From Coriobacteriaceae bacterium (GTDB lineage: Bacteria; Actinomycetota; Coriobacteriia; Coriobacteriales; Coriobacteriaceae), in the NCBI GenBank assembly GCA_015062655.1, contig SUUG01000003.1, positions 1 to 64,000 on the forward strand: a DNA stretch of 64,000 bases, read 5' to 3'. This document shows, one piece after another, positions 32,172-37,378 of this stretch. Under the pieces are notes generated by a model. It saw only the letters and a list, made by a program, of their open reading frames with translations, searched no databases and was not told the origin of the DNA. Made by a program: the position numbers and the translations under genes. Each line of letters starts with the position of its first letter. Position 1 is the stretch's first letter.

Positions 32172-32283
32172 GGGTGCCCCTCTCATTGTTCTCAATCGAG
32201 TCATATTCATTATGGCACGTCCCGTGCGGACGGGTGGGCGCGCGGGCGCCTGTGCTACGATTGTCGGACATATAAGCTGGCCT

Positions 32284-32444
32284 AGATGGTGGTGCGGAGA
32301 CGCACGGACGCGGCCGCGTCCGGGAGAATGGGGTGCGAGTCCCCAGCTGTACCAGTAACCGTGTTTCGGACGGCCGTGGTGATAGCGTCGCAGATCGGAC
32401 GACGCGCACGGTCGGATGACGATGAGTCGGATCGCCTCCCATCT
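32284..32444 (+). ncRNA. Cobalamin riboswitch
   Basis: The core GGGAGAATGGGGTGCGAGTC, followed by CCCAGCTGTACCAGTAACCG, matches the conserved cobalamin-riboswitch block (GGGAA..GGTGcgAntCC..nCtGnnCCnGcaACcGT). The 3' B12-box-like part GATGAGTCGGATCGCCTCCC follows at about 32421-32440. Outer helix P1 forms from AGATGG (32284-32289) and CCATCT (32439-32444). It lies directly ahead of two surface-protein genes and should lower their expression when cobalamin is plentiful. I see no clear expression platform; a short stem near the start codon (CCAG/CTGG) may block translation. Confidence 0.88.
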
Positions 32445-32491
32445 CAGCGCGCCGCGTCCGCGGTGCCAGGCTCTGGGGGAAGGGATCCGAG

Positions 32492-35400
32492 ATGATCGGA
32501 CTCGGCGACCGCGCACGCGCTGCGCATGTCACGCAATCAACCATATATATGATGAGGACCGCGGGCGATAGGACCTTGCGGGCGGTCTTGGCGCTGGCCG
32601 TGGCGCTCGCCGGGGCCCCGGTGACGGCCGCAGCTGAGACGGTCGCGCCCGCGGGCGTCGATGGGCCTGCGCTCGTCGAGGGGGCCGCCTTCTCGGGGGG
32701 CGAGGCGGCTGAGGGCGCTCCGGCCGAGGGGGACGGCGCGGCAGGCCTCACCGTGGAGGAGGACGGGGCGCCCGAGGCCGCCTCCGCGCGCACTGCGGCG
32801 GCGGGCCCGGCGCCCGAGGCCGCCTCTGTGCCCGCCGTGGAGCCCGCGGGGGAGGGCGCCGCCGCGATGGCCGCATCCGCAGCGACGGCCGAATCCGCCG
32901 CAGCACCTGACCCCGCCGCCGACCCCGACGCCGACCCCGCCGACCCCGACGCCCTCGAGCTCTCCCGCGCGCTCGCCGCCCTCGAGGCGGACGGCTTCGG
33001 CGGGTACGTCCCGCGCCCGCGCTACGGGGTCGACGCGAACCTCAACACCATGATCGAGGCGCGTCTCGAGGCCCTGGGGCACCCGGGCATCCGCGCGCGG
33101 GTCGCCTCCGTGGACGCCCAGACCGACCCGGCGGCCGCGGGCGGCGTCGACGCCACCGACACCGACGCCAACGGGGCCGTCTCCTACTTCTTCCTCGCCC
33201 CGGATCAGAAGACCTCGCGCTACGACTACTCGGTGCTGCGCCAGCTCACGCCGACCTTCGAGCTCTCGCTGGGCGGCGCCCGCGCGGCCTACACGCCCGC
33301 GCGCTCCATGACACTGCCCTGGGACGAGGGCCGCGTGGAGTCCTACCTCGCCGCCGCCGCGGCATCGCTCGAGCTCGCCGAGGCGCTCACCGCGCCCGCC
33401 GTCCCCGAGGACGTGACCGGCGCCCCGCTTCCCGTCTACGTCGTCGGCGCGGGTGGCGTGAAGGTTGCGGACGTGTCCTGGAAGAGCTCCGACCAGGCGG
33501 TGGCGAAGGTCAATACCGGCTTCGACGCCGACTACAACAGCGTGGCGGAGGTCCGCCTCACCCACCAGTCCACGCCCGCCACGGTGACGCTGACGGCGAC
33601 CCTGAGCCTCAAGATCCCCGGGTACGGCGCCGCGCCGTCCACCACGGCCGCCCGCGACGTCACCCTCGAGGTGTCCCCGCGCTCGGGCGCGACGTCCGCG
33701 CAGATCGAGCGGCGCCTCAAGACCTACCTCTCGAAGGTCAAGGTCACCGACTTCATCACGGGGGACGCGGTGAAGCCCGGCGCCGTCGCCGGGGACCTCC
33801 AGTTCTCCCGCCCGCGCGATCTCGGTCTGGACGGTCGCGTCTACCGCCTCTCCTACGTGTCGGAAGACGACTCCGTCGTGCGGATCTCGGGCTACCGCGG
33901 CGTCATCACCCCCTCGCTGGCAGGGGAGGGGGCGCGGCGCACCTCGATCAAGGCCGTGCTCTCCTATGAGGGCGTCACCGTCGAGCGCGACCTCGGCGCG
34001 TTCACGATGGCGGAGGTCGGCTCCGAGGAGATCGACGCCGCCGTCGCCCTCATGGAGCAGGCGCGCGCGGGCTACGCGGCCCACCTGCTCGGCTCGAACG
34101 CGGCGCCTGACCGCGTGACGGGCGACCTGTCGATCTTCCGCGCGGTGCTGCCCGGGGCTGACGGCGCCGTCTGGGAGCGCACGGCGGCCGCGGCCCGCGT
34201 CGGCGGCATCGAGCCCGTGGACCTCCCCGGCTACGATCCGATGTCCTCGCAGCCCTGGCGCACGTTCCGCTCGTCGGACGATCGCGTCGTCGCGAGCGAG
34301 AGCCTCCGCGTGAGCCGGCCCGACTACGACCGCGAGGTCACGGTCGACTCCGTCCTCACCTACAAGCGCTACGAGACCCTGGCCCTCGCGCACCCCGAGG
34401 ACGCCCGGCTCGCGAAGCTCGTCGCCCAGCCGGTGTCGGCGACGTTCACGGTCTTGGGCACGAAAGGCGCCGTCGACCCGGCCGCGCAGGCCCCGGTGAG
34501 CGTCACGGCGAAGATCACGGGCGTGAGCGCGCCCGGCGCCGACGGCCGCGTGCGCGCGCAGGCCTGGGTTCCCGCGACGCCCTTCACCTTCAAGAAAGGC
34601 GAGCGCAAAAGCGCTTGGGACGTCCTCGCGGCCCTGCTCGACCAGGGCGGTTACACCTACGACCTCTCGACCGGCATGCCCGGATCGGTGACCTCCCCCG
34701 ACGGCCGGGTGCTCAAGATGGAGCAGATCGGAGCCGACTGGGCCTATTGGAGCCTGCTCATCAACGGCGGGTACGCATCCGAATACGCCAACAAGATCGA
34801 GGTGGGCGACGGCGATGAGATCGAGCTCGTCTACGTGACGCCGCTGCTCTCTGAGGACGGCGGCGGGGCTGCGGTCGAGCCCGGTGCGGACGCGCCCGAG
34901 ATCGTGCCCGACGCGCCGAGACCCGATCTGCCCGTGGTCTGGACGGGCTTCGGAAACGGTGGCAAGACCGCGCTCGACGGCGTCTCGACCCCGGCGGACG
35001 CGGCCCGCGAGCTGTGGGCCGCCGACCTCAGGCGCCCGGGAGAGGAGTACGCCGCCGTCGGGGATCCCCTGATCGCGGGCGGCCACCTCTTCGCCGCGAC
35101 CTCGACTGAGCTCGTCAAGATCGACCGCTCGACGGGCGCGGTCGTGCGCCGCGTGAAGACCTACGGCGCGACCGCCTACTTCTCCCGGGCCGTCTACGCG
35201 GACGGGGTGATCGTCGTGCCCTCCGACGACGGCTCGCTCGCCGCCTTCACGGCCGACACCCTGACCTGCGTCTGGAAGACGCCCCCGCTCGAGCGCCCGG
35301 TGATCGACGGTGCGGCCGCGAGCTGGCAGGCGAGCTCCACGTTGACGGTCGCGAACGGGGCCGTGGTCGCGCCGTTCGCCGCGGGCCTCGGCGCGGGCGG

Positions 35401-36589
35401 CGCTCCCGCGCGGGCCGGCGCGCTCGTGTCCGTGCGCATCGCGGACGGTAAGGTCATGTGGGTGAAGACCTCCGAGGCGGCGCCTGGCGCGGGCGCGGGC
35501 TATTACTGGGCCGGCGCCTCGGTGTCGGGCGCGGATCTCGTGATCGGCGACGAGGCCGGTGCCGTCCGGCTCATCGACGCCGCGTCGGGCGAGGTCCTCT
35601 CGTCGGTCGACCTCGGCATGCCGGTGCGCTCCACGGTGGTCACCGCCGGCGAGGAGGGCGGGCTGCCGGTGTTCCTCGCCGTGGGGCGCGCCCCGGCGAC
35701 CCTCTACAAGATCGTGCGCGAGGGGGACTCCCTGCGGCTCGCCGGCCAGGTCGTCTTCGCCGCCTCCTCGACGTCGACCCCGGCGGTGCTTGACGGCGTT
35801 GCCTTCGTGGGGGGCGCGGGCGCGGACTTTTCGGGCCTGCTCGCGGAGGTGGACCTGCCGACGATGACCCTGCGAAGCGCGACGCAGGTGGCGAGGGCGG
35901 AGGTCAAGTCGGCCCCGCTCGTCTCGCGCGTGGGCGGACGCACCCTCGTGTACATGACGGCGAACGCCGCCCCGGGTGCGCTGCTGCGCTATGAGGCCGG
36001 CACGCGCGCGGTCACGACGCTGTTCACGCCTGCGGGTGACCAAGCGAACTACAGCACGGCGAGCGTGATCGCCGACGCGGACGGCACCCTCTACTACAGC
36101 AACGACTCGGGCGTGATCTTCGCGATCGGGGCGGCCGCGGATCCGGGGGTCGACCAGGGCGGCGGCTCGGGCGGTTCGGACGGCGGGGGGCAGCCTGGCG
36201 GCCAGGCGGGCGCGGGCGATGCCGCATCCGACCCGGCCGGTCCGGCGACGCCGTCGTACGGGGCGGACGTTGCGGGCCTGCGAAACCCGCTCTCGGGGCA
36301 GGCTGCTTCGGGGCGTATCGCCCCCGCGAGAAGCCCGCTGCGCCGCCTCGCCGCCCCGTCGGCTGCGACCGGTCGGGACGACGCCCGGGATGCGGGTGCC
36401 GAGCCGTCGGCCTCCCCCGAGGTCGATGACGCGTCCCCGGCTCCGGCCTCCGTAGACGCCGCGACTTCCGCCGTGGACGCCCGCGAGCTCGGGATGCCAT
36501 GGGTTCTGGGCGCCCTCGGCGTGATCGGCCTCGTGGTGTCCGGCCTGTGGTTCTTGGTTCTGCGCCGTCGCGAGCGCGGGGAGGGATGA
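32492..36589 (+). CDS. Large cell-surface protein: Ig-like repeats, DUF4430 (transcobalamin-like) domain and PQQ-type beta-propeller
   Basis: A 1365-residue exported protein. A signal peptide covers about residues 20-50 (LRAVLALAVALAGAPVTAAA). An Ala/Pro/Glu-rich linker follows to about 150. Three immunoglobulin-like repeats (about 265-655) contain motifs such as VSWKSSDQAVAKV and VTLTATLSL. A DUF4430-like domain (about 670-790) has WAYWSLLINGGYASEYANK and VGDGDEIELVYV. A beta-propeller with PQQ-like repeats (about 813-1220; AAVGDPLIAGGHLFAATSTELVKIDRSTG) is followed by a linker, and a membrane helix with Arg-rich stop (about 1331-1365) anchors it. Placed directly after a cobalamin riboswitch. 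DUF4430 is related to the B12-binding domain of transcobalamin, so cobalamin capture is inferred. GTG/ATG alternatives: 32492 follows GGGGGAAGGG; 32549 would also retain the signal peptide. Confidence 0.8.
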   Translation: MIGLGDRARAAHVTQSTIYMMRTAGDRTLRAVLALAVALAGAPVTAAAETVAPAGVDGPALVEGAAFSGGEAAEGAPAEGDGAAGLTVEEDGAPEAASARTAAAGPAPEAASVPAVEPAGEGAAAMAASAATAESAAAPDPAADPDADPADPDALELSRALAALEADGFGGYVPRPRYGVDANLNTMIEARLEALGHPGIRARVASVDAQTDPAAAGGVDATDTDANGAVSYFFLAPDQKTSRYDYSVLRQLTPTFELSLGGARAAYTPARSMTLPWDEGRVESYLAAAAASLELAEALTAPAVPEDVTGAPLPVYVVGAGGVKVADVSWKSSDQAVAKVNTGFDADYNSVAEVRLTHQSTPATVTLTATLSLKIPGYGAAPSTTAARDVTLEVSPRSGATSAQIERRLKTYLSKVKVTDFITGDAVKPGAVAGDLQFSRPRDLGLDGRVYRLSYVSEDDSVVRISGYRGVITPSLAGEGARRTSIKAVLSYEGVTVERDLGAFTMAEVGSEEIDAAVALMEQARAGYAAHLLGSNAAPDRVTGDLSIFRAVLPGADGAVWERTAAAARVGGIEPVDLPGYDPMSSQPWRTFRSSDDRVVASESLRVSRPDYDREVTVDSVLTYKRYETLALAHPEDARLAKLVAQPVSATFTVLGTKGAVDPAAQAPVSVTAKITGVSAPGADGRVRAQAWVPATPFTFKKGERKSAWDVLAALLDQGGYTYDLSTGMPGSVTSPDGRVLKMEQIGADWAYWSLLINGGYASEYANKIEVGDGDEIELVYVTPLLSEDGGGAAVEPGADAPEIVPDAPRPDLPVVWTGFGNGGKTALDGVSTPADAARELWAADLRRPGEEYAAVGDPLIAGGHLFAATSTELVKIDRSTGAVVRRVKTYGATAYFSRAVYADGVIVVPSDDGSLAAFTADTLTCVWKTPPLERPVIDGAAASWQASSTLTVANGAVVAPFAAGLGAGGAPARAGALVSVRIADGKVMWVKTSEAAPGAGAGYYWAGASVSGADLVIGDEAGAVRLIDAASGEVLSSVDLGMPVRSTVVTAGEEGGLPVFLAVGRAPATLYKIVREGDSLRLAGQVVFAASSTSTPAVLDGVAFVGGAGADFSGLLAEVDLPTMTLRSATQVARAEVKSAPLVSRVGGRTLVYMTANAAPGALLRYEAGTRAVTTLFTPAGDQANYSTASVIADADGTLYYSNDSGVIFAIGAAADPGVDQGGGSGGSDGGGQPGGQAGAGDAASDPAGPATPSYGADVAGLRNPLSGQAASGRIAPARSPLRRLAAPSAATGRDDARDAGAEPSASPEVDDASPAPASVDAATSAVDARELGMPWVLGALGVIGLVVSGLWFLVLRRRERGEG

Positions 36590-36595
36590 GGTTTT

Positions 36596-37378
36596 ATGGC
36601 TGATGAGCTGAAACCCGATACCCGGGTCTACCCGGGCTCTGATCAGGCGTCCCCGGAGGCTTCGCGGCGCAGCCGCTCCTCTCGCCGCGGCATCGCGGCG
36701 CTGTCCGCGGTGTCGGTGGCCCTCATCATCGCGGCCGTGGTGCTCGCCTTCGCATCCCCGCAGACCGGTCTCGTCCCGGACGGCCTCTGGCAGACGACCA
36801 CGGCCGGGTCGGCGGCGGGTGAGGGCTCGTCCTCGCGCCCCGCGCCCGCATCCGGTTCGGCTGATGATCACGCCTCGGCTGCGGACGGGGCGGACCAGGC
36901 GGACGCAACCGCGGCGGGCGACGTCCAGGGCGCCTCCTCGAGCGCCGGCGATCCGTCCGAGGCGGGCCGCGGGGCGGGAGCCGATGCATCTGACGGGACC
37001 GCTTCCGTCGTGACCCTGGGCGCCGCCGATGACGGACCGACCTCCTCTGGCGGCGGGTCGCCTTCTGCCGATCCCGCCAACCAAGCCGTCACGGTGACGG
37101 TGACGGTGAGCGCCCGCGCCGCGGGCGGCGGCACGCTGGCGAGCACCGAGCTCTCCTTCGAGGCCGGTGCCACCGCTTACGACGCCCTCATGGGCACGGG
37201 CCTTTCGGTGAGCGCGGAGCGCACGGCCTACGGTATCTACGTGCGCGCGATCGGCGGCTACGCCGCCGAGGGGTCGAGCGGCTGGATGTACGCGGTCAAC
37301 GGGAGCGAGCCGAACACCTCGGCTGCGAACTACACCTTGCACGACGGGGACACGGTGTCCTGGTACTTCGTCAACTGA
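36596..37378 (+). CDS. Membrane-anchored DUF4430 (transcobalamin-like) protein
   Basis: A 260-residue protein. A cytosolic basic N-terminus (SRRSRSSRRG) is followed by one membrane helix (about 33-53), a disordered Ser/Ala/Asp linker to about 160, and a C-terminal DUF4430 domain with SSGWMYAVNGSEPNTSAANY and LHDGDTVSWYFVN. The domain matches the extracellular B12-binding-type module. It starts seven bases after the large surface protein, so it shares the riboswitch-controlled mRNA. It may cooperate with the large protein in cobalamin binding; no BtuFCD importer is encoded in the window. Confidence 0.83.
   Translation: MADELKPDTRVYPGSDQASPEASRRSRSSRRGIAALSAVSVALIIAAVVLAFASPQTGLVPDGLWQTTTAGSAAGEGSSSRPAPASGSADDHASAADGADQADATAAGDVQGASSSAGDPSEAGRGAGADASDGTASVVTLGAADDGPTSSGGGSPSADPANQAVTVTVTVSARAAGGGTLASTELSFEAGATAYDALMGTGLSVSAERTAYGIYVRAIGGYAAEGSSGWMYAVNGSEPNTSAANYTLHDGDTVSWYFVN

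Follow-up and report, generated by a model that had tools for sequence, protein, structure and literature searches.

The DNA analysed here (the window) comprises the first 64,000 nucleotides of contig SUUG01000003.1 in assembly GCA_015062655.1, a Collinsella genome of 2.07 Mb that is 98.7% complete. The locus under study codes two surface proteins, P0001 and P0002, whose genes are spaced by 6 bases and preceded by a structured leader (Table 1). A first-pass annotation, made by reading the letters of the window, had described a 1365-aa exported protein followed closely by a membrane-anchored DUF4430 protein, and both open reading frames were confirmed. The Ig-like repeats that it assigned to the larger protein are less secure: the amino terminus of P0001 itself gives only a hint of them (aBig_2, E 0.03), although the motif is above the cut-off in one homologue. 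Large Ig-like regions occur, as do repeats, whose number varies. The counterpart from C. vaginalis has 58% identity over the compared region.

Table 1. Features of the leader and of the P0001-P0002 gene pair (window coordinates), and the propeller paralogue coded elsewhere in the source genome.
Feature	Position	Strand	Evidence or description
Cobalamin-riboswitch-like aptamer, Coriobacteriia type (AdoCbl-II-like)	32282..32447	+	R1 170.3 bits, E 1.4e-42; sequence inside the R1 training set
P1 helix, 5' side AGATGG	32284..32289	+	Covarying pairs in alignment A1
P1 helix, 3' side CCATCT	32439..32444	+	Covarying pairs in alignment A1
CUCUGG motif just 5' of the ribosome-binding site	32471..32476	+	Conserved in leaders; probably belongs to the expression platform
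Possible start-codon hairpin UCCGA-GAUGA-UCGGA around the ATG at 32492	32485..32499	+	Enrichment in leaders; putative role
P0001 gene	32492..36589	+	1365-aa exported surface protein
P0001 layout			Signal peptide, Ig-like region, DUF4430, beta-propeller, carboxyl-terminal transmembrane segment
DUF4430 (transcobalamin-like SLBB) of P0001	34499..34837	+	Genome search 34685-34834, E 1.3e-4; conserved in A2
Beta-propeller of P0001, BamB/PQQ type	34919..36145	+	PF13360; AF2; Foldseek
Carboxyl-terminal transmembrane anchor of P0001, RRRER tail	36500..36562	+	Direct reading of sequence
P0002 gene	36596..37378	+	260-aa surface protein
P0002 layout			Amino-terminal transmembrane segment, low-complexity linker, DUF4430
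Amino-terminal transmembrane segment of P0002	36692..36757	+	Direct reading of sequence
DUF4430 of P0002, transcobalamin beta-domain fold	37085..37372	+	PF14478, AF2, Foldseek, VIA
Exported 574-aa propeller protein, first in the ECF-CbrT operon of the source genome	L132 5063-6787		Paralogue of the P0001 propeller

The leader had been proposed to be a cobalamin riboswitch with a closing P1 helix. The Rfam scan of the window at gathering scores gave no riboswitch match, and a permissive regular-expression scan for motifs of cobalamin riboswitches returned only noise. Relaxed scans match positions 32321-32376 to AdoCbl-II (RF01689) with 29.4 bits vs a gathering score of 36.5, and the leader to full-length RF00174 with 25.6 bits vs 31.5 (genome-wide E 1.2e-4), which is the sole RF00174 match in the genome. 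Alignment A1 of 29 leaders from family genomes shows 36 invariant positions in the aptamer core, while 6/6 pairs of P1 are changed on both sides in a compensatory manner, which bears out the closing helix. A covariance model (R1) was built from the leaders of Collinsella relatives, the lineage of the element itself. Dismissal of the riboswitch from the Rfam gathering scores alone was overruled by this lineage model and by the covariation: the leader misses the Rfam thresholds, but the sub-threshold matches, R1 and the covarying pairs support its homology. Judged on sequence, the resemblance to a cobalamin riboswitch is not due to chance.

R1 elements are found in 58 of the 65 family genomes (57 strong and one weak) and their presence tracks that of DUF4430 in all 65, both being present in 58 genomes and neither in seven. 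With fixed margins the probability of this match by chance is P 1.4e-9, a value that ignores kinship and the training of R1 on part of these genomes. Strong elements lie on the same strand as the DUF4430 genes, 0.2-7.5 kb ahead of them, in 56/57 cases. G034 has a strong element and its DUF4430 genes on a different contig, and in G032 no strong riboswitch precedes DUF4430. The genomes that have neither comprise G042 and G063, which carry CbiD and lack CbrT; G056, which is without a B12-binding domain; G004 and G053, whose CbrT operon is at a contig edge; and G054 and G061, which are 89% and 86% complete, respectively. Homologous operons of Eggerthellaceae are preceded by R1 matches, with AdoCbl-II above gathering at the R1 site in 4/7 tested loci, and those of Clostridia have above-gathering RF00174 matches upstream in most loci tested. 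The distribution of R1 in the family, together with AdoCbl-II and RF00174 at homologous operons, places the leader in the cobalamin riboswitch clan as a divergent member. It has the placement of such an element, ahead of putative B12 uptake genes.

Other RF00174 matches occur in the family. They are above gathering in three Collinsella genomes (L059 5421-10227, minus strand, and also near L004 and L006). In G037, the one of these examined, the match precedes the gene of a 1558-aa exported FIVAR protein without detected DUF4430, apparently a second B12-controlled surface protein. A sub-threshold match in G063 (L061 7363-9692) is near divergently oriented CbiD and a cobalt-precorrin methyltransferase-like gene, in a genome that has neither DUF4430 nor CbrT.

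The order (C)YCUGG, purine-rich SD and start codon is kept in 38/38 leaders. Leaders have a hairpin at the start codon more often than other gene starts do (P 1.7e-7, ignoring phylogeny). This order and the hairpins would fit control of translation. Covariation is uninformative either way on a 4-base kissing match between the aptamer CCAG and the CUGG 5' of the ribosome-binding site, because this match is invariant.

The DUF4430 domain of P0002 scores 47.8 bits with PF14478 (cut-off 23.8). The domain of P0001 is marginal by score (18 bits in hmmscan, and 23.8 bits when the genome search takes it together with its neighbours) and clear in alignment A2, where scores of 34-80 bits are reached by several of the 20 homologues. 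The AF2 model of the P0002 domain (pLDDT 88) has a helix at residues 54-60 followed by strands 65-70 and 73-79, which is a beta-grasp with a strand-hairpin insert after the helix. Its top Foldseek matches are transcobalamin, intrinsic factor and haptocorrin. VIA gives Z 14.2-15.7 against these proteins and 8.4 against the best unrelated fold; the comparison with the cyanocobalamin-bound beta domain of human transcobalamin (5np4) has Z 14.3 and rmsd 2.0. At the sequence level, the domain profile picks up human transcobalamin-1 (4kki) as a weak match (E 0.007). The relation of DUF4430 to transcobalamin advanced in the first-pass annotation is supported by the predicted fold of the P0002 domain. 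With the beta domains of these carriers it aligns at an rmsd of about 2 A over 98-100 residues. The bacterial proteins differ from transcobalamin, intrinsic factor and haptocorrin in being membrane-anchored and in having a propeller, or nothing, at the place of the alpha/alpha barrel, which is not among the Pfam matches of P0001 or P0002. In vertebrate transcobalamin this barrel makes up half of the B12 site.

The propeller is preceded by one to four DUF4430 domains in most relatives. In P0001 it is of the PQQ_2/BamB type (PF13360, E 1.3e-10), and its AF2 model (pLDDT 85.6) is matched by Foldseek to BamB and to the designed eight-bladed Cake8. Contig searches with the P0001 sequence alone returned no matches; those with an alignment of homologues did. 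A loose parallel had been drawn to BtuG of Bacteroides (PMC6143338), which is likewise a surface beta-propeller tied to B12 uptake genes. BtuG is seven-bladed, unlike the BamB/PQQ-type match here, and belongs to a Gram-negative system with BtuB as partner. It is absent from the 50 fold matches and the PDB sequence matches listed, where BamB/PQQ types are found, and absence from such a list does not amount to exclusion. The parallel is functional at best.

In the other lineages examined, the genes usually form a single operon coding the propeller/DUF4430 protein, the small DUF4430 protein, EcfT, EcfAA' and CbrT. This full arrangement is found in Slackia, Eggerthella, Rubneribacter, Olsenella, Atopobium, Oscillospiraceae and Lachnospiraceae (that is, in Eggerthellaceae, Atopobiaceae and Clostridia). 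A short operon of some Collinsella and related genera has the riboswitch followed by genes of a DUF4430 lipoprotein, EcfT, EcfAA' and CbrT. Its S component matches 6FNP (E 4.8e-7), which is ECF-CbrT, an experimentally proven importer of cobalamin and cobinamide (PMC5997447). The Lactobacillus delbrueckii transporter of that structure likewise combines EcfT and EcfA subunits with a CbrT-like S component. It differs from the system described here, in which the module is a dedicated one, EcfAA' is fused, and the operon of relatives also codes surface DUF4430/propeller partners.

In the source genome (G000) a CbrT orthologue with 53% identity is coded at C12:88707-89366, preceded by EcfT and EcfAA' (locus L132). 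These genes are on a different contig from the surface pair, and the importer that the first-pass annotation had noted as missing from the window is this ECF-CbrT. The exported propeller protein heading the operon is without DUF4430 and has no Pfam match at E 0.01; of the family genomes examined, five more (G017, G026, G032, G046 and G062) have a propeller-headed CbrT operon. The one-operon linkage in relatives argues that surface pair and importer belong together though they are split here. A further arrangement is seen in G052 (L092 4130-7460, minus strand), where the DUF4430 pair is followed by an ECF transporter whose S component is FolT/ThiT-like, and CbrT is coded elsewhere in the genome.

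One protein with a B12-binding domain is coded in the source genome, at C18, and is identified as MetH because its neighbour reads as MetF. Neither CbiD nor the MetE catalytic domain was found in this genome. From this gene content, with MetH present and MetE and CbiD absent, the organism is probably a B12 auxotroph that needs the vitamin for methionine synthesis. The contig of the window also codes, beyond the window, a BtuR-type cobalamin adenosyltransferase (C26:123725-124210, minus strand), MetH being the sole B12-binding-domain protein found. Five family genomes (G019, G020, G021, G030 and G031) have riboswitch and DUF4430 without a B12-binding-domain protein at E 1e-5. The use of DUF4430 as a marker of genomes unable to make B12 was not upheld, since 16/18 CbiD-carrying family genomes have the domain. 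Collinsella aerofaciens is reported to require B12 despite a full set of synthesis genes (PMC6593275).

The locus is, with high probability, a B12-repressed cell-surface module for corrinoid capture that feeds ECF-CbrT, corrinoid binding being a prediction. The notion of a Gram-positive surface B12-capture pair, present already in the first-pass annotation, is strongly supported by the co-occurrence of riboswitch and DUF4430, the linkage to ECF-CbrT in three lineages, the predicted fold and a B12-using, CbiD-less genome. When cobalamin is scarce, the leader would permit translation of P0001 and P0002; when cobalamin is bound, the ribosome-binding site or the start codon would be hidden. Both proteins would be anchored in the membrane with their transcobalamin-like DUF4430 domains outside, one of them fused to the BamB-type propeller, and the face of these domains would, as the fold suggests, hold corrinoids. 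These would be passed to the dedicated EcfT-EcfAA'-CbrT, a transfer suggested by the observed gene linkage, and the imported vitamin would serve MetH. A more speculative extension, possible but less likely than not, is that the propeller takes the place of the alpha/alpha barrel and clasps the corrinoid in a joint site with DUF4430, the small protein handing it on to CbrT. Such an arrangement, if true, would be a cell-wall relay that provides an ECF importer with an external substrate-binding protein, and it might capture B12 held by carriers of host or dietary origin. No ECF transporter is known to use an external substrate-binding protein.

The identity of the ligand is where the strongest alternative lies: it may be another corrinoid (cobinamide or another cobamide) or a protein-held corrinoid instead of free cobalamin, which is rather unlikely but deserves weight. 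Cobinamide is also carried by ECF-CbrT (PMC5997447) and the surface binder BtuG can take B12 from intrinsic factor (PMC6143338). The system is kept in CbiD-carrying Collinsella, and C. aerofaciens is reported to need B12 in spite of its synthesis genes (PMC6593275), which would fit salvage; the source genome is without CbiD. It is improbable that the proteins are B12-regulated scaffolds or adhesins that do not bind the vitamin, their DUF4430 and propeller binding cell-wall glycan or a host ligand and their co-expression with a transporter reflecting operon history. The predicted DUF4430 fold matches B12-binding domains beyond a generic beta-grasp, the domain is linked to CbrT in several lineages, and the shortest operons have a lone DUF4430 lipoprotein heading the ECF-CbrT genes. 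Features that would suit an adhesin are the large Ig-like regions, the variable number of repeats, the separate cobalamin riboswitch ahead of a FIVAR surface protein in some Collinsella, and the companion domains suggested as polysaccharide tethers (Burroughs et al., PMC1796856).

A system for cobalt or for another vitamin, suggested by the resemblance of the ECF ATPase and T subunits to CbiO/CbiQ, has very little probability. Its similarity to cobalt transporters is at the group level and the ECF transporter that follows the pair of G052 has another S component, but the conserved S component is CbrT-like and the leader is in the cobalamin riboswitch clan.

The capture module feeding ECF-CbrT has a precedent in the transcobalamin-like SLBB clade of Gram-positive surface proteins, for which Burroughs et al. 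2007 (PMC1796856) proposed B12 scavenging. They described a fusion to a propeller in Clostridium, paralogues that come in pairs and a link to CbiO/CbiQ-like genes, and pointed out that the ligand of archaeal SLBB proteins may be a different one. As here, secreted or surface DUF4430/SLBB domains are fused to Ig and beta-propeller domains, have a second paralogue in the operon, and are beside CbiO/CbiQ-like genes in Gram-positives that do not make B12. That study covered low-GC Gram-positives, planctomycetes and archaea, mentions no riboswitch and predates the CbrT assignment; what is new relative to it comprises the Coriobacteriia, the lineage-specific riboswitch and its class, the link to CbrT and the splitting of the operon. 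BtuH of Bacteroidetes (PMC8941943) is also a surface B12-binding protein, with one Firmicutes homologue near a predicted ECF cobamide transporter, but was reported as a separate novel B12-binding class with no DUF4430 link described there. A limited literature search for papers pairing DUF4430 with cobalamin found none on this system. Rodionov and colleagues (PMC6593275) list CbrUVT among B12 importers and regard the finding of B12 transport systems in gut genomes as an open problem.

The gathering of B12 outside the membrane of Gram-positive gut bacteria has received little study, and the surface binders known, BtuG and BtuH, were characterised in Bacteroidetes. At this locus, surface proteins that resemble transcobalamin are combined with a riboswitch and an importer of proven type in one testable system, which spans Collinsella, Slackia, Eggerthella, Olsenella and gut Clostridia. 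Proof of binding would provide a role for a domain of unknown function and an external capture step for ECF importers, and these proteins would be new players in the competition between microbes and host for B12.
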